Shown one piece after another: positions 3,277 to 37,878 of a stretch of DNA of 37,878 nt; positions within the stretch are counted from its first letter, which is position 1; each line of letters opens with the position of its first letter. The stretch comes from a virus. The notes below the pieces were generated by a model. It saw only the letters and a program-made list of their open reading frames with translations, was not told where the DNA came from and did no database searches. Position numbers and translations under genes: made by a program. The stretch is taken from positions 1 to 37,878 of IMG/VR virus record IMGVR_UViG_3300032265_000183, one strand, 5' to 3'.

Positions 3277-3626
3277 GGCCTGCCCTCCGTCAGGAACGCT
3301 GGCGCGTCCAGCGGCTCATCGCCGAGCCTGTCGGGCATGGACACCTCGCGGGTGACGGGCGCCTGCGCCTGCACCAAGTCGCGCAGCACCAGTTCGAAGT
3401 AGCCCGCGCCGTCCTGCCAATGGTCCTGATAGGACGGGTCGCCGCACAGGATGCGCGCCACCTTGTCAGCGACGACTTCCAGCGCTTGCGCCTGCGCCAC
3501 GTCAAGGCGGTTCCAATTGCGCGAGGTTCGCATGAGTTGCTTGATAGCCTGCGAGTAGCCCGCCACTTCGCGGAACAGCCCGTGGGTCTGTTCGCGGTCG
3601 GATAGGATCTGGTCTGTGAGGCTCAT
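3273..3626 (-). CDS. DUF6378-type phage protein
   Basis: A 117-residue soluble protein. The N-terminal REQTHGLFREV followed by a long helix, then ALEVVADKVARILCGDP and QDHWQDGAGYFEL, match the pattern I recall for DUF6378: an early phage protein with ERxxTHG, a KxARIxxGDP block and a DxxDxAGY-like block. The repeated conserved acids and the DHW..D..GY motif are reminiscent of all-alpha NTP pyrophosphatases, but that is inference only. It overlaps both neighbours by four bases (ATGA at its start, GTGA at its end), so it is translated as part of a chain with the DnaA-like gene upstream. Confidence 0.78.
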   Translation of the reverse strand: MSLTDQILSDREQTHGLFREVAGYSQAIKQLMRTSRNWNRLDVAQAQALEVVADKVARILCGDPSYQDHWQDGAGYFELVLRDLVQAQAPVTREVSMPDRLGDEPLDAPAFLTEGRP

Positions 3627-4009
3627 TTTTTACGGTCCTTCTTTGAATATAGGGCATTCATGATGGTGGTGTGGTCGCGTCCGCAAAAGATCCCGATCTT
3701 CATGAGCGACCACCCATGCTTGCGGAGCGCCTTGTAAACGTCCGCTCTGGCGCGTGTGTAGGGTAGGGTGCGGCTTGGACCCATGGCGTCGGTCCAGGTC
3801 ATGCCATGGGGCACGAGCGCCGCTTGAGCAATCCGCCTGGCGTCGGATAGGGTGTATTGAAAGGACGCCGGGGGCGGGTCGGGTTCCGGTTCCGGTTCGG
3901 GCGGCGGGGGCGGCGCGATGGCGACCGGGGCGCGCGGTGGTCCGCCGTTGAGCCGCGCGCGGACGGCCTTGTAGTGGTCCGACAGGGCTAGGAAGTAATC
4001 GACGCTCAT
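3623..4009 (-). CDS. DnaA domain-IV-like DNA-binding protein
   Basis: A 128-residue protein in three parts: a short N-terminal helix (1-20), a proline/glutamate-rich linker (residues 23-48, with runs of P and alternating E-P), and a C-terminal domain (about 52-125). The last domain contains GWSLMKIGIFCGRDHTTIM, which fits the DnaA C-terminal helix-turn-helix signature (sL.eIG..fgRDHtTv) with R111, D112, H113, T114 and T115. In DnaA this loop reads the 9-base DnaA box. No AAA+ ATPase part is present. It could occupy DnaA boxes on host or phage DNA, or regulate transcription. It overlaps both neighbours by ATGA junctions. Confidence 0.85.
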   Translation of the reverse strand: MSVDYFLALSDHYKAVRARLNGGPPRAPVAIAPPPPPEPEPEPDPPPASFQYTLSDARRIAQAALVPHGMTWTDAMGPSRTLPYTRARADVYKALRKHGWSLMKIGIFCGRDHTTIMNALYSKKDRKK

Positions 4010-5748: not shown

Positions 5749-5827
5749 TGTGTTCGTCCTTCGCATTTGGCGCTCTTTGCTGGCGCTCTGGAATAGGGGC
5801 GCCCGTGGGCGCCCGCATTTCAGAGCG

Positions 5828-5911
5828 TCAATCCAGAATGGCGGTCACGATGAAACCGGCGGTCAGAACGACGATGGTCAGAATGGCGGTGAAGATTTCC
5901 AGATTGTGCAT
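5828..5911 (-). CDS. Very small single-span membrane protein, 27 aa, first gene of the early operon
   Basis: ATG at 5911 to TGA at 5828, with GGAGC a few bases ahead. The product begins MHNLEIFTAILTIVVLTAGF and ends with a hydrophobic stretch closed by LD: one helix that could span the membrane. It is the promoter-proximal gene of the minus-strand early operon, so it should be made very early. It resembles the 26-residue product at 4467-4547 in size and layout (a glutamate near position 5-6, then A/T-L-T-I-V). Confidence 0.6.
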   Translation of the reverse strand: MHNLEIFTAILTIVVLTAGFIVTAILD

Positions 5912-5935
5912 TTGCTTGCTCCGTTTCGATGACTA

Positions 5936-5964
5936 ACCCTACTCTCGTCATTTAGGCTTGTAAA
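5936..5964 (-). promoter_or_regulatory. Sigma70-like promoter for the early minus-strand operon
   Basis: Reading leftward, TTTACA (-35, 5964-5959) is followed after exactly 17 bases by TAGGGT (-10, 5941-5936). Predicted initiation near 5929 gives a leader of about 18 bases that contains the GGAGC site of the first gene (ATG at 5911). The -10 is weak, but geometry and location fit well. Confidence 0.55.
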
Positions 5965-5976
5965 GCATTTTAATGC
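5965..5976. promoter_or_regulatory. Palindrome abutting the early promoter (possible operator)
   Basis: GCATT-TT-AATGC is an inverted repeat with 5-base arms that touches the upstream edge of the -35 box of the early promoter. A bound dimer here could activate or block that promoter. The site is short and no regulator is identified. Confidence 0.35.
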
Positions 5977-6080
5977 AAGATAGCGAAAAAAGTTTTTAGG
6001 CGTCTTTTTGGTAGCCTGTTAGTCGCGTGATTAGGCGTGGGGAAACGGTGTGGAAGCGCGGGAATTGCGGGGGGTTTGGC

Positions 6081-6160
6081 TTTTTAGGTCATGAGTATGA
6101 TATATGTTTAGAAGATTATAATTTACATATATATACTGTAGAATAGAATTGTAGGCCGCG
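6081..6160. other. AT-rich patch in the large intergenic region
   Basis: The stretch around 6091-6151 is dominated by A and T (runs such as TTATAATTTACATATATATAC) inside otherwise GC-rich DNA. It lies directly left of the repeat cluster that starts at 6188. It could be a DNA-unwinding element of an origin, or could hold promoters (TATAAT and TATACT hexamers are present without a good -35 partner). No gene is seen in it. Confidence 0.45.
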
Positions 6161-6187
6161 ACGTGCGCGCGCGTGTGAGCGACTTGG

Positions 6188-6277
6188 ATTGGCGCGCCAA
6201 TAACGCCAATCGGCCAATAAAACGCCTATCGGCCCCTATTCGCGCCCTGGCGCACACTGGCGATTGGCCGATTGGCG
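6188..6277. repeat. Palindrome and CGCCAATCGG motif cluster
   Basis: ATTGGCGCGCCAAT (6188-6201) is a perfect 14-bp palindrome. It is followed by AACGCCAATCGGCC (6202-6215), a variant copy AACGCCTATCGGCC (6221-6234) exactly 19 bases on, and two overlapping inverted copies (6261-6277). Two further direct copies occur at 6308-6317 and 6407-6417, the second inside a 17-base exact repeat (6301-6317 and 6400-6416). Several sites of one sequence in both orientations, in non-coding DNA, indicate a protein-binding region such as an origin, operator or packaging site. Confidence 0.7.
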
Positions 6278-6317
6278 TTTTGGGCCTCTAAAAAAAAGAG
6301 GCCAAAGACGCCAATCG
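6269..6317. repeat. Large imperfect dyad with 21-base arms
   Basis: The arm 6269-6289 pairs with 6297-6317 over 21 positions with two mismatches, leaving a loop of seven A residues. The inner 7 bp (GGCCTCT/AGAGGCC) are perfect. Both outer ends are copies of the CGCCAATCG motif. It could be a bidirectional terminator insulating the divergent operons, or a single-strand initiation hairpin for the primase. With the A-run in the loop and no T-run after the stem it is not a standard intrinsic terminator. Confidence 0.65.
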
Positions 6318-6420
6318 TTCAAAGCCCAATGCGAGCGTCATGCAAGCGCCAGGTGACGCCATGCGAGCGCAAGACGTCATATGCGACTGTCAGCGCATAG
6401 CCAAAGACGCCAATCGGCCC

Positions 6421-6500
6421 ATGTTATTGCTCTGATACTGTTGTTATTGCCTTGCTTGTGCTGCTATTGCTCAGGCCATGTAGCTATTGCCATGGTCAAG
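6421..6500 (+). repeat. Four-unit direct repeat with exact 20-bp period (iteron-like)
   Basis: TATTGC occurs at 6425, 6445, 6465 and 6485, always preceded by GT or GC, giving a core GYTATTGC every 20 bp. Position 14 of each unit is always G, and three of the four units end in TG. The period is not a multiple of three, so this is not a protein repeat, and it lies upstream of the likely small-terminase start. Arrays with about two helical turns per unit are typical of iteron origins and of terminase-binding sites. Confidence 0.75.
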
Positions 6501-6578
6501 TTGCTAGGGGGGGGTAGGGCCTGCCGCCGCCCGGTCACGGTCACGGAGGGATTGCAAACAATTTTTTTTAAATATAAA

Positions 6579-7142
6579 ATGTCTTACATGACATGGCACA
6601 CGCTCCCACACGACACGCGCAAGCTTCAGGCAACTGAGGCGCGGCTTGACGCAATCTATTGGGCGGCGCGTAATGGCTTGAAAGGCGACACGCTGGCGTT
6701 GGCGGCTGGGATGCGTCCGTCTGAGTATCGGCAACTCTGCGAGTTCGATCCGCTGACGGAAATGGCGGAACAGAAGGGACGCGCTGACGGCGAGATGGAA
6801 ATCTCTGGCATCTTGCATGACGCGGCGCGACAGGGCGACGCCAAAGCGGCGTTGGAGATCTTGAAGCACGCGCACGGGTGGACGGCCAAGACGGCGTTGG
6901 ACATCAACATCGATCAGACCATCTCGGTCAAGCACGCCTTGGAGATGGCCCAGCAGCGAGTGCTGGACGGGGCGTTTACTGTCGTGGAACAGCTAGAGGA
7001 CACAGATCGTGCAAACACCAATCTATTCGGCTCAGGACGAGATGGAGGTGATGGCGCGGTTGTGGACGCCCGCGCTGAAGAACGACCCGCTAAAGTTCGT
7101 GCTGTACGCGTTCCCGTGGGGGCAGAAAGGAACGCCTCTTGA
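6579..7142 (+). CDS. Terminase small subunit (putative)
   Basis: Position and content fit the DNA-recognition subunit that hands phage DNA to the large terminase. From the ATG at 6579 the product is 187 residues. A helical DNA-binding-like N-terminal half (LDAIYWAARNGLKGDTLALAAGM, in outline helix-turn-helix) is followed by an ILHDAARQGDAKAALEILKHAHGW block common in phage small terminases, and then an oligomerisation helix. The start is unsure: no good ribosome site precedes 6579. The leader is AT-rich (TATAAA directly before the ATG), and GGAGGG lies about 30 bases upstream. The last 134 bases overlap the large subunit gene in another frame, and that tail is likely weakly constrained. Confidence 0.75.
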   Translation: MSYMTWHTLPHDTRKLQATEARLDAIYWAARNGLKGDTLALAAGMRPSEYRQLCEFDPLTEMAEQKGRADGEMEISGILHDAARQGDAKAALEILKHAHGWTAKTALDINIDQTISVKHALEMAQQRVLDGAFTVVEQLEDTDRANTNLFGSGRDGGDGAVVDARAEERPAKVRAVRVPVGAERNAS

Positions 7143-8532
7143 GGATTTTGCTGGACCGCGCAAATGGCAGCGCGAGGTGCTGCATGAGCTGGCGCAGCAT
7201 ATAGAGCAGAACAATGGCAAGGTTGACTTCGACACGCTGCGGATGGCGACCAGTTCGGGGCGCGGCATTGGCAAGTCGGCGCTGGTGTCTTGGCTGGTGA
7301 TCTGGATGCTATCGACGCGCATCGGGTCCACCACCATTGTGTCGGCCAACTCGGAAGCGCAGCTCAGGTCGGTGACGTGGGCGGAAATAACCAAGTGGTT
7401 GTCCATGAGCTTGAACAGCCACTGGTTTGAGATCAGCGCCACCCGCGTGGCCCCGGCCAAGTGGCTGACGGAGATCGTGGAGAAGGATCTGAAGATGGGC
7501 ACGCGCTACTGGGGCGCGGAGGGGCGGCTGTGGAGCGCGGAGAATCCCGACGCCTACGCGGGGGTGCACAACTTCCAAGGCGTGATGCTGGTGTTCGACG
7601 AGGCCAGCGGCATCGAAGACAGCATCTGGTCGGTGGCGGCGGGGTTCTTTACGGAAAACACGCCCAATAGGTTCTGGATGGCGTTTAGCAACCCCCGGCG
7701 CAATAGCGGGTACTTCTACGAGTGCTTCAACGGCAAACGGGACTTCTGGCGCAACAAGATCGTGGACGCCAGATCGGTTGAAGGAACGGACAAGGCGGTG
7801 TACCAGCAGATCATTGACGAGTACGGGGCGGACAGCAACCAAGCCTACGTTGAGGTCTACGGTCAGTTTCCCAGTGCGTCGGACGATCAGTTCATCGGTA
7901 GCCACCTGGTTGACGAGGCAATGGACCGCATTAAGTGGAAGGATCAGTCGGCCCCCATCGTCATTGGCGTGGACCCGGCGCGGTTTGGGGCGGACTCAAC
8001 GGTCATCGCCGTGCGGCAGGGCCGGGACATCATCGCCATCAAGAAGTACCGGGGCGACGACACCATGGAGGTAGTCGGGCGGGTAATCGAGGCCATCGAG
8101 GAGTACAAGCCCGCGTTGGTCGTGGTGGACGAGGGCGGGCTGGGCGCGGGCGTCGTGGACCGGCTCAAGGAGCAGCGGTACAAAATCAGGGGCGTCAACT
8201 TTGGGTCCAAGAGTAAGAATCCGCTCATGTGGGGCAACAAGCGGGCGGAGATGTGGGGCGAGCTGCGGACGTGGCTCAAGACGGCCAGCCTGCCCAAGGA
8301 CCGCTACCTCAAGAGCGACCTGATCGGCCCCATGATGAAGCCGGACAGCAAGGGTACGATCTTTTTGGAAAGCAAGAAAGACATGAAAGCGCGGGGGTTG
8401 GCGTCACCCGACGCGGCGGACGCCATCGCTGTCACGTTTGCGTTTCCGGTGGCGCACCGGGAGTACGTTGACCGTGGGCCTAGAAGAGGGTACTCTGCGG
8501 GCGGAATTACAACCTCATGGATGGGATCGTAA
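7009..8532 (+). CDS. terL: Terminase large subunit (ATPase and nuclease)
   Basis: The packaging motor, 507 residues, close to P22 gp2 in size. Motifs in order: an adenine-binding region PRKWQREVL (50-58), Walker A SGRGIGKS (83-90, K89), Walker B MLVFDE (193-198, D197/E198), and an RNase H-like nuclease with D322 (GVDPARFG), D374 (VVVDEGG) and D468/D471 (SPDAADA). The start at 7009 is kept because the conserved-looking segment KFVLYAFPWG follows soon after, so the long overlap with the small subunit gene is real. With the P22-like portal and coat it suggests headful packaging, which also fits the circular map. Confidence 0.97.
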   Translation: MQTPIYSAQDEMEVMARLWTPALKNDPLKFVLYAFPWGQKGTPLEDFAGPRKWQREVLHELAQHIEQNNGKVDFDTLRMATSSGRGIGKSALVSWLVIWMLSTRIGSTTIVSANSEAQLRSVTWAEITKWLSMSLNSHWFEISATRVAPAKWLTEIVEKDLKMGTRYWGAEGRLWSAENPDAYAGVHNFQGVMLVFDEASGIEDSIWSVAAGFFTENTPNRFWMAFSNPRRNSGYFYECFNGKRDFWRNKIVDARSVEGTDKAVYQQIIDEYGADSNQAYVEVYGQFPSASDDQFIGSHLVDEAMDRIKWKDQSAPIVIGVDPARFGADSTVIAVRQGRDIIAIKKYRGDDTMEVVGRVIEAIEEYKPALVVVDEGGLGAGVVDRLKEQRYKIRGVNFGSKSKNPLMWGNKRAEMWGELRTWLKTASLPKDRYLKSDLIGPMMKPDSKGTIFLESKKDMKARGLASPDAADAIAVTFAFPVAHREYVDRGPRRGYSAGGITTSWMGS

Positions 8533-12110: not shown

Positions 12111-13388
12111 ATGGCCTTCATAACCGCAGATCGTGTCAAGGACACATCGACCACGACCGGCACCGGCAACATCACGGTGTCTGGATCTGCGCCATTTGGC
12201 TATCGGACCTTCTCAACGGTTCTGAGCGTTGCGGACACTTTCTATTACGCCATTCAAGGTCAATCGACTGCCGAATGGGAAATTGGCGTTGGCACTTATG
12301 CCAGTACCAACCAGTTTGCTCGCACAACCGTGTTGGCGTCTTCTGCCAGTGGTAGCGCCGTGTCGTTCTCGTCCGGCACCAAAAACGTGTTCATTACGTT
12401 GGCGGCGGCTAGAACGCTTCAATTAAAATCTGGCGACACGCCTACGGCAGGGTCTATCCCTTATGGCGATGGCGCTACCCTTTCGTACAGTTCTGTGGGT
12501 ACGGCAGGGCAGGTACTTATATCCGGCGGTTCTGGTTCGCCTACATGGTCGTCTGCGGGTACGGGCTCCGTTACTAGTGTTGCCGTCAGCGGCGGCACAA
12601 CGGGCCTTACGACCAGTGGCGGACCTGTCACTACATCAGGCACCATAACCATTGCAGGTACGCTTGCTTATGGTAACGGAGGTACTGGTGGTACAGCAAC
12701 CCCCACCGCAGGCACCATTCCCTACGGCACAGGCACCGCGCTTGCATATTCGGCTGCGGGCACATCGGGCCAGGTGCTTACGTCTGGCGGCGCTGGGGCC
12801 CCTACTTGGACCACTGTGACGGGCACCGGTACCGTCACTAGCGTCAATGTTAGCGGCGGCACTACGGGCCTCACGTACAGCGGCGGGCCTATTACAGGGT
12901 CTGGCACCATTACAATGGCGGGCACGTTGGCTGTTGCTAACGGCGGCACAGGAATCACCAGTTTTGGAACCGGCGTTGCTACCGCGCTTGGGCAGAACGT
13001 GTCGGGTTCCGGCAGCATTGTTCTTGGCACGTCGCCCACGGTCAACAACCCAACCGTCACTAACTACGTTGAATCAGTGGTGGCTATTGGTACGGTAACA
13101 ACGACCAATACCATCGCCCTGACCAACGGCACGGTTCAAACGGCTACTCTGACGGCTTCCACGGCTTGCACGTTTACAATGCCTACGGCAACTGCGGGTA
13201 AATCTTTTGTGCTGCTGTTGAAACAAGCCGCTGCAACCGGCAACGGTACAGCTACGTTTACCAGCGTCAAATGGGGCACTGCTGGAGCGCCTACAATCAC
13301 TGCTACTGCGGGCAAAATGGACATCCTGACTTTCTTTGCTGACGGCACCAACTGGTACGGCAGCATAGCGCAGGGGTACACACCGTAA
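12111..13388 (+). CDS. Tail fibre protein with tandem repeats
   Basis: 425 residues with TAGGATAG before the ATG. Residues 1-102 form a beta domain (MAFITADRV ... KNVFITLAAA) that recurs at the start of the protein at 15385-16971, so it is likely the virion-attachment module. Residues about 110-283 hold two tandem copies of an 87-residue unit (TPTAGxIPYG ... GQVLxSGGxGxPTW ... GGTTGLT ... GTITxAGTLA), a pattern typical of trimeric phage fibre shafts. The C-terminal part (about 310-425) is a separate beta region ending in FFADGTNWYGS. The next gene starts in its stop (TAATG). Confidence 0.82.
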   Translation: MAFITADRVKDTSTTTGTGNITVSGSAPFGYRTFSTVLSVADTFYYAIQGQSTAEWEIGVGTYASTNQFARTTVLASSASGSAVSFSSGTKNVFITLAAARTLQLKSGDTPTAGSIPYGDGATLSYSSVGTAGQVLISGGSGSPTWSSAGTGSVTSVAVSGGTTGLTTSGGPVTTSGTITIAGTLAYGNGGTGGTATPTAGTIPYGTGTALAYSAAGTSGQVLTSGGAGAPTWTTVTGTGTVTSVNVSGGTTGLTYSGGPITGSGTITMAGTLAVANGGTGITSFGTGVATALGQNVSGSGSIVLGTSPTVNNPTVTNYVESVVAIGTVTTTNTIALTNGTVQTATLTASTACTFTMPTATAGKSFVLLLKQAAATGNGTATFTSVKWGTAGAPTITATAGKMDILTFFADGTNWYGSIAQGYTP

Positions 13389-15384: not shown

Positions 15385-16971
15385 ATGGCTTTTATAACCG
15401 CAGATCGTGTCCTTGATAGCTCCACGTCCACAGGCACGGGGGCTTTTGTTGTGTCTGGTACGCCTGCAGCAGGCTACAGGACATTTTCTGCGGTCATGTC
15501 AGTCGGCGACACTTGCTATTATTCAATCCAAGGGCAAACAACCAGCGAATGGGAAGTGGGTCTTGGCACCTACTCGTCTGCCAACACGCTGACCCGCACC
15601 ACGGTTTATAGCTCATCCAATTCTGGGTCTGCTGTTACGTTCTCTGCTGGCACCAAAAACGTTTTTATTACGATGGCGGCGTCCAAATCCCCCCAAATAG
15701 ACCCTTCTGGTAACGTGACGGCGTTAGGTACGCCTGCGTCCATAGCATTGACAAACGCCACCAGTTTGCCTCTTGCAACTGGTGTTACCGGCACGCTCTC
15801 TGCCAACAACGGCGGATCTGTAGCCTGGCAGTCTGTCCAAACAACCGGCTTCACGGCTGTCGCTGGCAATGCTTACCCCGTCAACACCACATCCGCTGCA
15901 ATCACTGTCACGCTCCCCGCCAGCCCGTCTGCAGGCAACATCGTGCAGTTGACGGACTATGCGGGGACGTGGGTTACTAACAATGTGACGGTTGCTCCAA
16001 ATGGCGCCAAAATCAATGGCGGAAGCGGCGGATTTTCTGCAACAACTGTCCGTGAAAGCATTGCGCTTGTTTACATTGACGCAACACAAGGATGGCTTGT
16101 TTATTCTGGCGTTAACGCCACCAATCCCGGCATATACAGCGCGTCATATCTTAATGTTGCTGGCGGCGGCGGCGCGTCAGGAGATCTTGGCGGCGGCGGC
16201 GGTGCAGGTGGCTTGCTCACAGGAACGTCTATTTTAACGGCTGGCACCACTTATACGATTACAGTCGGCGCTGGCGGCTCTGGAGGAACTGCAACTCGTG
16301 TATCCACCGGCATGACTGCTGGAAACAACTCAATTTTCAATTCAATTACCGCTATCGGCGGCGGCGTATCAACGGGCTATCCAAACGCCAACGTCAACAC
16401 AACTGCTGGATCGGGCGGGTCTGGTGGCGGCGGCGGATCCCCACAGGGTTTAACACAAACTTCTACAGGTGGGTCTGCAACATCGGGGCAAGGAAACATC
16501 GGCGGTAATGGCGCGTCTAATAATGTTTATTATGTGGGTGCGGGCGGTGGCGGAGCTAGTGCCGCAGGGCAAAACGCATCTGTCACTGCCCCCAATGGTT
16601 CGGCGGGCGGCGCAGGAACGGTGTCATCAATCACTGGCTCATCCGTAACATACGCGGGTGGGGGCGGCGGCGGTGCTTATTCTGGCGGTGGGGCAACAGT
16701 TCAGGGGGCCGGTGGCTCTGGCGGCGGTGGAACCGGAGGCATTGCTACCGGAACCCCTGCAACGGCTGGCACCGCGAATACGGGCGGTGGCGGCGGCGGA
16801 GGAGGTTACGGAACAGGCCCTTTGGCTGGCGGCGCTGGCGGCTCCGGCGTTGTCATCTTGTCTGTGCCCACTGCCAACTACACTGGAACCACAACCGGCT
16901 CACCCACCGTGACCACATCAGGTGCTAACACCATCATCAAGTTTACCGCATCTGGCTCATATACGGCCTAA
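15385..16971 (+). CDS. Tail fibre/adhesin with glycine-rich C-terminal domain
   Basis: 528 residues. Residues 1-102 are a clear paralogue of the start of the protein at 12111 (MAFITADRVLDSSTSTGTG ... KNVFITMAAS). A beta shaft follows (about 110-250). From about 255 on the sequence is dominated by poly-glycine tracts (GGGGASGD, GGGGAGGLL, GSGGGGGS, up to eight G in a row) and ends GGSGVVILSV and a short beta tail. This matches glycine-rich tip domains of phage fibres, where stacked polyglycine helices present variable loops to the receptor. Only a weak ribosome site (AAGGTT) is seen. Confidence 0.82.
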   Translation: MAFITADRVLDSSTSTGTGAFVVSGTPAAGYRTFSAVMSVGDTCYYSIQGQTTSEWEVGLGTYSSANTLTRTTVYSSSNSGSAVTFSAGTKNVFITMAASKSPQIDPSGNVTALGTPASIALTNATSLPLATGVTGTLSANNGGSVAWQSVQTTGFTAVAGNAYPVNTTSAAITVTLPASPSAGNIVQLTDYAGTWVTNNVTVAPNGAKINGGSGGFSATTVRESIALVYIDATQGWLVYSGVNATNPGIYSASYLNVAGGGGASGDLGGGGGAGGLLTGTSILTAGTTYTITVGAGGSGGTATRVSTGMTAGNNSIFNSITAIGGGVSTGYPNANVNTTAGSGGSGGGGGSPQGLTQTSTGGSATSGQGNIGGNGASNNVYYVGAGGGGASAAGQNASVTAPNGSAGGAGTVSSITGSSVTYAGGGGGGAYSGGGATVQGAGGSGGGGTGGIATGTPATAGTANTGGGGGGGGYGTGPLAGGAGGSGVVILSVPTANYTGTTTGSPTVTTSGANTIIKFTASGSYTA

Positions 16972-32440: not shown

Positions 32441-33777
32441 GTCTTCAGTTCCTCAAGTGCTATGTCTGAGATCGCCCGCTTGTCCTGAAGCGCGCCCCAG
32501 ATCCGTTCGTCTATAGTTTTATTACAGATCAGCAGATAACACCAGACATCCCGCGTCTGGCCGCCCCGGTGGATGCGCCCCACCGTCTGTTCAAACAGTT
32601 CCAGCGACCACGGCAGCGACAGGAAGATCATGTTGCAGCCGCCAAACTGTAGGTTCAGGCCGTGCCCGGCAGACTTGGGATGGATCAACAGCATCTCGAT
32701 TTCGCCCGCGTTCCACCGCTGGATGGCGTTGAAGTCATCAATCGTCCGCGCCAGCGGATACCGGCGCAGCAACTCGGCAAGCTCTTCCTTGTAGTTGTAG
32801 ACGATGATCGTGTTGGCGTGCTGGTTCTCGTTCAGGATCTCATCCAACAAATCGAACTTGTGCGTTGAAAACCAGATGGCCTTTTGTTTCTGGAGAAATT
32901 TGCCGGGCTCAAGTGACGCTTCCGTCTTGGTGTCGTAGACAAATCCAGACGCCATTTGCTGAAGCTTGTTCGTCACGGCGGCGGCGTTCGCCGCAATGAT
33001 CCGATCCTCGCCGTACTCCAGCACGAAATCGCGCTTCATCTTCTCGTATGGTTTGCGGTCGGCCATGTCGCAGCGCATTTCCACAACATTTAACTGCGGC
33101 AGTTTGTCGCTGTACTCGCCTGGCTCCAGCACGAAGGTAGCCGGACGGATGGCGTCCATGACCTGCTCCAGCGCGCCCTTGCGCGGCTGCCAGTCGCCGA
33201 AGTCGCGGTTGACGCATACAAAGTACTTTTGGAGGAACGCGCCCTTGGCCCGGCCCAGCAGCGTCTGGTCGATCACCTTGCATTGGCCGAACACGTCTTC
33301 GAGTCCGTTGGACGTGAACGAGCCGGTCAAACCCCACCGGAACGGGATCTTGTCGAGGTGCGCCAACAGCGCCTTGAAACGTTTGCCGCTGGGGTTCTTG
33401 AGCCGCGTTAGCTCGTCAAAGACGATGCCGTCAAAGCCCGACAGATCCGGCAGGGACTGGATGTTGTCGTAGTTGGTAACGACGATAGGCGCGGCGCTGT
33501 CAAACGCCACTTGACGCTGCGCTGGCGTCCCGGTGGCGATGGCGATGTCAAAATCTGGAGCCCACTTGCGTTGCTCGACCGGCCACACGTCCGTGCAGAC
33601 GCGCTTAGGGGCCAGCACCAGCCAACGCTTGACATGCCCCTCCGCGATCAGCTCGGTCATGGCCGTCAACGTGATAGCCGTCTTGCCTGCGCCCACAGGC
33701 GCAAGGATCATTGCGCGGTCGCGTTCGAACAAGAAGTCGGCGGCTTGTTCTTGGTAAGGTCGTAACGTGAGGCCCAT
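32437..33777 (-). CDS. SNF2-family DNA helicase/ATPase
   Basis: From the ATG at 33777 (AAGGGGTGG upstream) the product is 446 residues. The open frame extends further upstream but would lie inside the nuclease gene. Motifs in order: Q-like LRPYQEQA, I APVGAGKT, Ia VLAPKRV, II VFDELT, III LTGSF, V IHPKSAGHGLNLQ, VI QTVGRIHRGGQ. This is the compact phage form of the SWI2/SNF2 superfamily, which acts as DNA translocase or helicase in replication or recombination. It overlaps the VRR-NUC gene by 70 bases, so the pair is translated together. Confidence 0.93.
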   Translation of the reverse strand: MGLTLRPYQEQAADFLFERDRAMILAPVGAGKTAITLTAMTELIAEGHVKRWLVLAPKRVCTDVWPVEQRKWAPDFDIAIATGTPAQRQVAFDSAAPIVVTNYDNIQSLPDLSGFDGIVFDELTRLKNPSGKRFKALLAHLDKIPFRWGLTGSFTSNGLEDVFGQCKVIDQTLLGRAKGAFLQKYFVCVNRDFGDWQPRKGALEQVMDAIRPATFVLEPGEYSDKLPQLNVVEMRCDMADRKPYEKMKRDFVLEYGEDRIIAANAAAVTNKLQQMASGFVYDTKTEASLEPGKFLQKQKAIWFSTHKFDLLDEILNENQHANTIIVYNYKEELAELLRRYPLARTIDDFNAIQRWNAGEIEMLLIHPKSAGHGLNLQFGGCNMIFLSLPWSLELFEQTVGRIHRGGQTRDVWCYLLICNKTIDERIWGALQDKRAISDIALEELKT

Positions 33778-35962: not shown

Positions 35963-37878
35963 ATGAAAACTCTCTGGCTTGATTTCGAGACGCGGAGCAA
36001 GTGCGACTTGCCTTCGCGGGGCGTGTACAACTACGCCCAAGACATAAGCACTGAGGTGCTGTGCATGTCCTACGCCTTCGATGACGACGAGGTGGTGACT
36101 TGGGTGCCCGGTCAGCCATTCCCCGCCACTGTCGCAGACCATACCGGCCAGATCCGCGCGCACAACGCTGCGTTTGAGCGTTTGATATTCTGGTTCGTGT
36201 TGTGCCCCGATCACAAGATCCCTGAGCCCAAGCTGGCGCAGTTCTACTGCACGGCAGCGCAAGCCCGCGCCAACTGCGCGCCCGGCTCGCTGGAGGACGT
36301 GGGACGCTTTGCTGGCGCATCCATGAAGAAGGACCACCGGGGCTCGCAATTGATCCGTCTGCTGTCCGTCCCGCAGGCTGACGGGTTCTTCAGGCAGGAC
36401 CAGACGCTAATGTCCGAGATGGTGGCCTACTGCGAGCAGGACGTGCGCGCCATGCGCGCGATTAGCAAAGGTATGCGTGACTTGTCCGCTGACGAGCTGG
36501 CCGACTACCACGTCAACGAGCGCGTCAACGATCGGGGCGTCCGTGTCGATGTCGAGCTATGCAACGCTGCCGTGCGTTACGCCACCACCGAATTGGACGA
36601 AATCCAGCAGATTGTCCGTGAGGTGACGGAGGGCGCGATCACCAGCGTCCGCAGCCCCAAGATGCGCCAGTGGGTGCTGGACCGTGTTGGGCCGCAGGCG
36701 CTGGAGTTGATGACGGTCTTCAAGGACGGCGAGGCAAAGTATTCTATAGACAAGTCCGTGCGCGGTAACCTTTTAATTTTGGCTGGAGAAAACCCCGATG
36801 AAGTGCCGCCCGATGTCGCTGAGGTCATACAATGTGCGGACGACCTATGGGCTTCGTCGGTCGCGAAGTTCCAACGCGCCGCTAATCTCGCTGATCGAGA
36901 TGATGGACGAGTGCGTGGGGCGTTTGTCTTTTCTGGGGGTTCAGCAACGGGCCGTGCTTCGAGCTTTGGACTGCAAGTCCACAACTTCCCCCGCAAGTGC
37001 GCGAAAGAACCTCAACTAGTCCGCGACGCGATGGTGCTGGGCGGCGAGATCGTCCCCCAGTACGGCAAGCGCGTCACTGACGTGCTGAAGCAGATGCTGC
37101 GCCCGGCGCTGCTGGCCGAGCCCGGCAACGCGCTGGTGGTGGCCGATTGGTCCTCCATCGAGGCGCGCGTCAACCCGTGGCTGTCTGGCCGGGGCGACGA
37201 CAAACTGGACATCTTCCGAAATGGCGGCGACGTTTACAAGGTGAACGCATCGGCAACATTCCGTGTGCCTGTCGCCGAGGTGACGGGCGACCAACGCCAG
37301 GTTGGCAAGGTGCAGGAACTGGCCTGCGGTTTTGCTGGTGGCGTGGGCGCGTTCGCTGCGATGGGCAGGATCTACGGTCTGTTGCTGCCTGAGCCGGAAG
37401 CCCGGCGCATGGTGGACGGATGGCGTCGCGCTAACCCGTGGGCCATGCCGTTCTGGGAAAGTCTGGAGCGGTGCTACACCGCCGCCATGCGGCACAAGGG
37501 CAAGGAGTTTACCGCCGGGCGCATAACTTACTTGTTCGACGGCGTCCACCTCTGGTACGCTCTGCCGTCTGGGCGCATCCTTTGCTACCCATACGCTCGA
37601 TTGGAGGAAGACGGCGTCACTTACGCTAAGGCGGCATGGAAGCCCGCTGCTGACGCCAAGGAATGGCCCCGCGCCCGCCTGTGGCGTGGTCTGGCCTGCG
37701 AGAACGTCACGCAGGCGACAGCCAACGACATCCTGCGCTACGCTCTTCGTTCGCTCGATGCAGAGGGGTTTGAACCCGTCCTGCACGTCCACGACGAGAT
37801 CGTGCTGGAGACCGCAGATCCTGTAGCAGCCGAGGAGGCCATGCAGCGCGCGATGTGTACGCCGCCCGCATGGGCCGC
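35963..37878 (+). CDS. DNA polymerase family A with 3'-5' exonuclease (runs off the right end)
   Basis: The replicative enzyme. The full protein is 656 residues when joined to 1-178. Exonuclease motifs: D7/E9 (LDFETRS), HNAAFE (67-72; glutamate in place of the usual aspartate) and Y156-x3-D160 (YCEQD). Polymerase motifs: A with D395 (ADWSSIEARV), B in QRQVGKVQELACGF, C with D611/E612 (HVHDEIVLE). The ATG at 35963 is chosen because the exonuclease motif follows at once. An in-frame GTG at 35906 would add 19 residues but sits one base from AAGGAGG. The primase gene follows across the junction. Confidence 0.95.
   Translation, partial: MKTLWLDFETRSKCDLPSRGVYNYAQDISTEVLCMSYAFDDDEVVTWVPGQPFPATVADHTGQIRAHNAAFERLIFWFVLCPDHKIPEPKLAQFYCTAAQARANCAPGSLEDVGRFAGASMKKDHRGSQLIRLLSVPQADGFFRQDQTLMSEMVAYCEQDVRAMRAISKGMRDLSADELADYHVNERVNDRGVRVDVELCNAAVRYATTELDEIQQIVREVTEGAITSVRSPKMRQWVLDRVGPQALELMTVFKDGEAKYSIDKSVRGNLLILAGENPDEVPPDVAEVIQCADDLWASSVAKFQRAANLADRDDGRVRGAFVFSGGSATGRASSFGLQVHNFPRKCAKEPQLVRDAMVLGGEIVPQYGKRVTDVLKQMLRPALLAEPGNALVVADWSSIEARVNPWLSGRGDDKLDIFRNGGDVYKVNASATFRVPVAEVTGDQRQVGKVQELACGFAGGVGAFAAMGRIYGLLLPEPEARRMVDGWRRANPWAMPFWESLERCYTAAMRHKGKEFTAGRITYLFDGVHLWYALPSGRILCYPYARLEEDGVTYAKAAWKPAADAKEWPRARLWRGLACENVTQATANDILRYALRSLDAEGFEPVLHVHDEIVLETADPVAAEEAMQRAMCTPPAWA
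37756..37878. repeat. Terminal direct repeat, right copy
   Basis: Identical to bases 1-123. It lies within the polymerase gene, including the codons of motif C, and marks the overlap where the circular map closes. Confidence 0.9.

Follow-up and report, generated by a model that had tools for sequence, protein, structure and literature searches.

What does a row of four short repeats, set exactly 20 bp apart just upstream of the small terminase gene, do for the podovirus that carries it? In this study we focus on the window, i.e. the whole stretch of 37,878 bases that was analysed, a circular assembly whose first and last 123 bases are identical. It carries podovirus genes (P22-type portal, family A DNA polymerase, DUF5906 primase), and its nearest annotated records are MW202483 and Dishui Lake phage DSL-LC05, for whose phages the family 'Luchaoviridae' has been proposed (PMC10611076). 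Such podoviruses are common in freshwater metagenomes, and candidate stretches that encode relatives of the large terminase subunit (TerL) number at least 600. We found neither a mapped origin nor a mapped packaging site for this podovirus group, and the literature searched on epsilon15-group packaging, which did not include the main epsilon15 genome paper, gave nothing decisive. Elsewhere in the window, two fibre-like genes (12111-13388 and 15385-16971) encode similar N-termini (MAFITADRV...), which suggests a duplication. The genes that matter for the locus are the following.

182-2518: large primase-helicase-type protein (PHROG DNA primase, DUF5906)
3623-4009, minus strand: protein with a DnaA domain IV-like helix-turn-helix
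6579-7142, plus strand: small terminase subunit (TerS), assigned by position, with no Pfam or PHROG hit; the start may be 6588 (MTWHTLP)
7009-8532, plus strand: large terminase subunit, epsilon15/phiV10-like (36-39% identity)

A 20-bp array before a GC-rich and T-rich core

The array lies in a noncoding region (5767-6578) between leftward genes and a rightward late operon led by terS, and is arranged with its neighbours as follows.

6096-6135, no strand: most AT-rich 40-bp window of the whole sequence (88%), with divergent promoter-like sites
6196-6422, no strand: upstream box region, with GCCAAT/CGCCAATCGG boxes in both orientations and 23-nt direct and inverted repeats
6423-6442, plus strand: array unit 4, farthest from the core, GTTATTGCTCTGATACTGTT
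6443-6462, plus strand: array unit 3, GTTATTGCCTTGCTTGTGCT
6463-6482, plus strand: array unit 2, GCTATTGCTCAGGCCATGTA
6483-6502, plus strand: array unit 1, nearest the core, GCTATTGCCATGGTCAAGTT
6503-6506, plus strand: truncated fifth repeat, GCTA, leading into the G-run (read from the sequence)
6507-6570, plus strand: family-wide core, G8-TA-GGGCC, CGGTCACGGTCACGGAGGG, GCAAACAATTTTTTTT (from comparison with relatives)
6552-6580, plus strand: candidate sigma70-like terS promoter, TTGCAA-17 nt-TAAAAT (consensus match only)

Direct pattern counts confirmed what a sequence-only reading of the locus had reported: on the plus strand, TATTGC starts at 6425, 6445, 6465 and 6485, and the longer GYTATTGC at 6423, 6443, 6463 and 6483, with a period of exactly 20 bp. 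The pattern TATTGC-N14-TATTGC occurs three times in the window against 0.01 expected from dinucleotide shuffles. When all hexamers were considered at every fixed lag from 7 to 60 bp, this array was the only set of four in a row in the 37,878 bases. An iteron-type origin is expected to have several direct repeats, each some 17-22 bp long and all in constant register, and the array fits this pattern.

The core, of about 65 bp, extends 0-75 bp downstream of the array and consists of a G-run, GGGCC and a T-rich patch. In the window the run comprises eight G (6507-6514), and it starts 22 bp from the last TATTGC hexamer, as in most carriers of the array. The AT-rich patch and the dyad noted from the letters alone are both real: the second most AT-rich 40-bp window of the sequence is 6555-6594, and inverted repeats pair 6196-6218 with 6263-6285 and 6250-6289 with 6297-6336. 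The two AT-richest windows flank the upstream boxes and the array on both sides, and so match the adjoining AT-rich unwinding region expected of an iteron origin. As a separate observation, the boxes in the slot at 6196-6422 switch wholesale among near relatives (GCCTAA, CCAATCGG, GGACAAT, CTACCAG, TGTGCAATC), and the DnaA-like protein does not track these changes.

Array and core in related phages

The comparison set comprised about 200 loci, gathered through TerL relatives and DNA patterns. A core before terS is common to nearly all of those that reach far enough upstream, and usually comprises at least five G, a gap of about two bases, GGGCC and, further on, CACGAACAATTTTTTATTTTTT or a near match to it, with 47-54 bp in most relatives from the start of the G-run to the T-rich patch of the CACGAACAATTTTTTATTTTTT type. 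A search for a conserved RNA fold in the core gave no consensus fold and only sub-threshold Rfam matches, and DNA similarity searches of other sequenced phages with the core returned only short, chance-level matches.

At least two hexamers 20 bp apart were found in 29 of the 36 distinct upstream regions with the core subtype of the window; ten of these loci had been picked up by the array pattern, which biases the sample, and without them the count is 19 of 26. The sequence-only reading, which had staked its case on the 20-bp spacing being shared by related phages, is therefore upheld by these 29 regions and contradicted by seven close relatives. Across the 36 regions, neighbouring hexamers lie 20 bp apart in 61 cases, 40 bp in seven and 43 bp in four, with other distances scattered and 19 or 21 bp never seen. 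In 58 units from relatives, only the hexamer core, G12 and G18 (counted from GYTATTGC) are fixed, the constancy of the ATTGC part being set by the choice of units by ATTGC; the G at position 14 and the TG at the unit end described earlier come close to G12 and G18 under another count. The rest of the unit differs, with a sequence particular to each unit position across the 58 units. Moreover, in three loci (L001, L161 and L189) one in-register unit is inverted and reads GCAACTTGACCAGCACAATG or similar, the other strand being CATTGTGCTGGTCAAGTTGC, a relative of unit 1. Because the unit sequences differ while the hexamer stays, the array is old and under constraint rather than a fresh duplication. 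On this comparative evidence it is an evolved module, real, constrained and exactly phased. The two-unit pattern has no host copy in 84,980 bacterial and archaeal genomes.

The seven close relatives that lack the 20-bp array have a TerS nearly identical to that of the carriers, and their left-arm genes, where comparable, are nearly the same as well. In six of them (L002, L004, L186, L190, L196 and L202) microsatellites and a different short motif replace the array, and in the seventh, L164, a single unit follows a microsatellite; the microsatellite alleles of the slot are (CCCTGC)n and (CCCGG)n. Over about 3.7 kb, L164 and L190 match base for base except in a stretch of about 45 bp that starts with the last unit and reaches on into the core; beyond this they differ only in an isolated base and in a few places at the ends of the contigs. 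These two loci come from different samples, and their ~45-bp sequences are unrelated. The difference may reflect a cassette exchanged recently or a chimeric assembly; mean HSP identity on such near-identical pairs is too coarse a measure to reveal swaps. Since close relatives do without it, the array would be an enhancer-like, replaceable part.

Where both TerL and primase could be read, the TerL of carriers is either 94-100% or 67-69% identical to that of the window; the lower class comes from loci L220-L229, which carry the array and whose readable TerL is 67-69% identical (L227: 94%). In readable cases the primase of carriers is at least 85% identical to that of the window, against 45-70% in phages of other clades. 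The array thus follows the phage backbone and not the terminase. Over the whole set, the stretch before the core changes completely between clades and is usually repetitive: short-lag repeats reached significance within the last 150 bp of 76 upstream slots out of 109, whereas the controls, stretches taken from inside terS, gave 7 out of 105.

Evidence bearing on a possible replication origin

The noncoding region that separates the divergent early genes from the late operon most likely contains the replication origin of the phage, as judged from its layout and its relatives. Within it, we propose that the array is one allele of protein-binding sites in an origin-like control region of a P22-portal podovirus, a reading to which we give a probability of about 0.45. 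A protein or protein complex would bind the TATTGC hexamers cooperatively on one face of the helix, and this binding would help to open AT-rich DNA or to load phage replication proteins. In favour of this proposal, the hexamers stand in one exact 20-bp register close to a GC-rich and then T-rich core, and the same slot holds clade-specific box arrays in other lineages, some of them canonical DnaA boxes.

Indeed, sister lineages have slots with 2-14 TTRTCCACA boxes, followed by GC-rich sequence and then the T-rich core, and at least two such boxes occur in the slot of 12 of 112 representative relatives. With the slot taken as the 600 bp before the core, there are 75 boxes in 66.6 kb of slots and 10 in the other 975 kb of these loci, i.e. 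a density about 110-fold higher in the slots, part of which is repeat expansion because in some clades TTGTCCACA lies within 9-10-bp tandem repeats. In three loci (L110, L129 and L134) the terS belongs to another family and lies upstream, and the noncoding stretch and core come directly before terL; about 300 bp before terL, the sequences shown contain TTATCCACA/TTGTCCACA boxes, a G-run core and then terL. Slot and core therefore remain joined even with terS on the other side. In the cultured freshwater podophage P26218 of Rhodoferax (L218) the core is absent, and GCTACAA/TTGTAGC box arrays are visible by eye at 33200-33650 and 36150-36315, upstream of the gene in the terS position and near the record end.

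Several observations weigh against the origin. The slot of the window itself contains no DnaA box, let alone the cluster of a DnaA-box origin, and GC skew keeps its sign across 6.5 kb. The core is near terL wherever terL could be placed, even with unrelated replication genes, although an origin need not be. Nor did an initiator that co-varies with the array emerge. The DnaA-like protein, put forward earlier as a candidate binder, hardly differs between carriers and non-carriers, yet in several other carriers (L220-L229) its identity is only 31-39%; its helix-turn-helix stays constant across array alleles and box types, which speaks against it as the binder. The primase, also put forward, fares no better, as its C-terminus does not separate carriers from non-carriers. 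No further initiator was recognised among the proteins scanned. The origin suggested from the sequence alone is thus backed circumstantially, by the DnaA boxes of sister lineages, the AT-rich brackets and the unity of slot and core, and loses ground on the missing DnaA box and co-varying initiator.

Comparison with known origins points both ways. The phage locus resembles plasmid iteron origins (RSF1010 oriV, RK2 oriV) in having direct repeats of about 20 bp that point the same way, with first GC-rich and then AT-rich sequence behind them, as in the layout of RSF1010. Unlike in these plasmid iteron origins, the phage units keep only the hexamer and two Gs, some of them are inverted, close relatives do without the array, and among the proteins scanned no Rep protein was recognised. 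The alpha protein of phage P4 is of the primase-helicase type and binds iterons; the window phage likewise encodes a large protein of this type (182-2518), but its C-terminus does not co-vary with the presence of the array. The slots of sister lineages are like DnaA-box origins of the bacterial oriC type, whereas that of the window is not, TATTGC not being a DnaA box.

Packaging, promoter control and other explanations

An alternative that we consider unlikely is packaging, with the conserved core as a pac or cos site and the array as the terminase-binding part beside it. Terminase sites are usually near terS, and the array, like the lambda cosB R sites and the P22/SPP1 pac sites, lies just upstream of it, a proximity that the sequence-only reading had taken to favour packaging. 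Furthermore, wherever terL could be placed in a relative, the core is found no more than about 2 kb upstream of it. The core keeps this place even next to a TerS of another family and a different replication module, some core-bearing loci encoding an Sf6_terminase (Pfam) TerS, a Prim-Pol/DUF3987 protein and another that matches a PolB-type exonuclease, and it remains beside terL where terS lies on its other side. The core alone thus shows the linkage to terminase genes expected of a terminase site, across rearrangements in which TerS families, replication modules and gene order vary. By this comparison, it is the core and not the array that is tied to TerL, and the core itself may serve in packaging.

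The array, however, is not conserved with TerS or TerL as the sites of lambda, P22 and SPP1 would lead one to expect: it is missing in the seven regions with near-identical TerS, six of which have other sequence in its place, and present with a TerL only 67-69% identical. This contradicts the array as the terminase-binding site, and the earlier suggestion of terminase recognition is not borne out. A packaging role for the array is weak, and the terminase appears not to need it. In addition, the window assembly closes into a circle that runs through the site, with its 123-bp end overlap elsewhere. Contig ends, a weak proxy for virion ends, are in slight excess near the core and share no common base, which rules out deriving a precise cos end from them; epsilon15-like records start at or just before terS with no shared element, and likewise fail to define physical ends.

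Control of late transcription, in which the array would serve as an upstream activator or repressor array for the promoter of terS, the first gene of the late operon, is also improbable. The promoter-like TTGCAA-17-TAAAAT directly follows the core, similar -10/-35 motifs are seen by eye near the terS ATG in other clades, and helically phased sites upstream of a promoter are typical of activators. Yet the array stands 50-130 bp upstream and is dispensable in some relatives, no co-varying phage regulator was found, and the core persists where an annotated homing-endonuclease gene separates it from terS (L081, MW202483) and where an insertion of unknown content fills that gap (L141).

A still more doubtful option is a combined origin and packaging locus in this large and little-studied group of freshwater phages, where a terL-tied core would be coupled to a rapidly changing array of initiator sites whose alleles are swapped. 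That the slot simply gathers short tandem repeats by slippage and recombination, leaving the array functionless, fits its microsatellite alleles and the restriction of the L164/L190 difference almost entirely to the slot, but is quite improbable given that slippage yields near-identical units, not units sharing a hexamer and two Gs, and given the spacing that never drifts to 19 or 21 and the in-register inverted units.

For the proposed origin-like control region, as for its rivals, the comparison separates a strongly conserved ~65-bp core beside the terminase genes from a variable array slot, two elements that reading the raw sequence merges. The putative natural allele swap between L164 and L190, together with the precise coordinates, provides material for testing origin, promoter and packaging functions. 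If the combined locus were true, related phages would keep the core and exchange the array, much like plasmid incompatibility groups.
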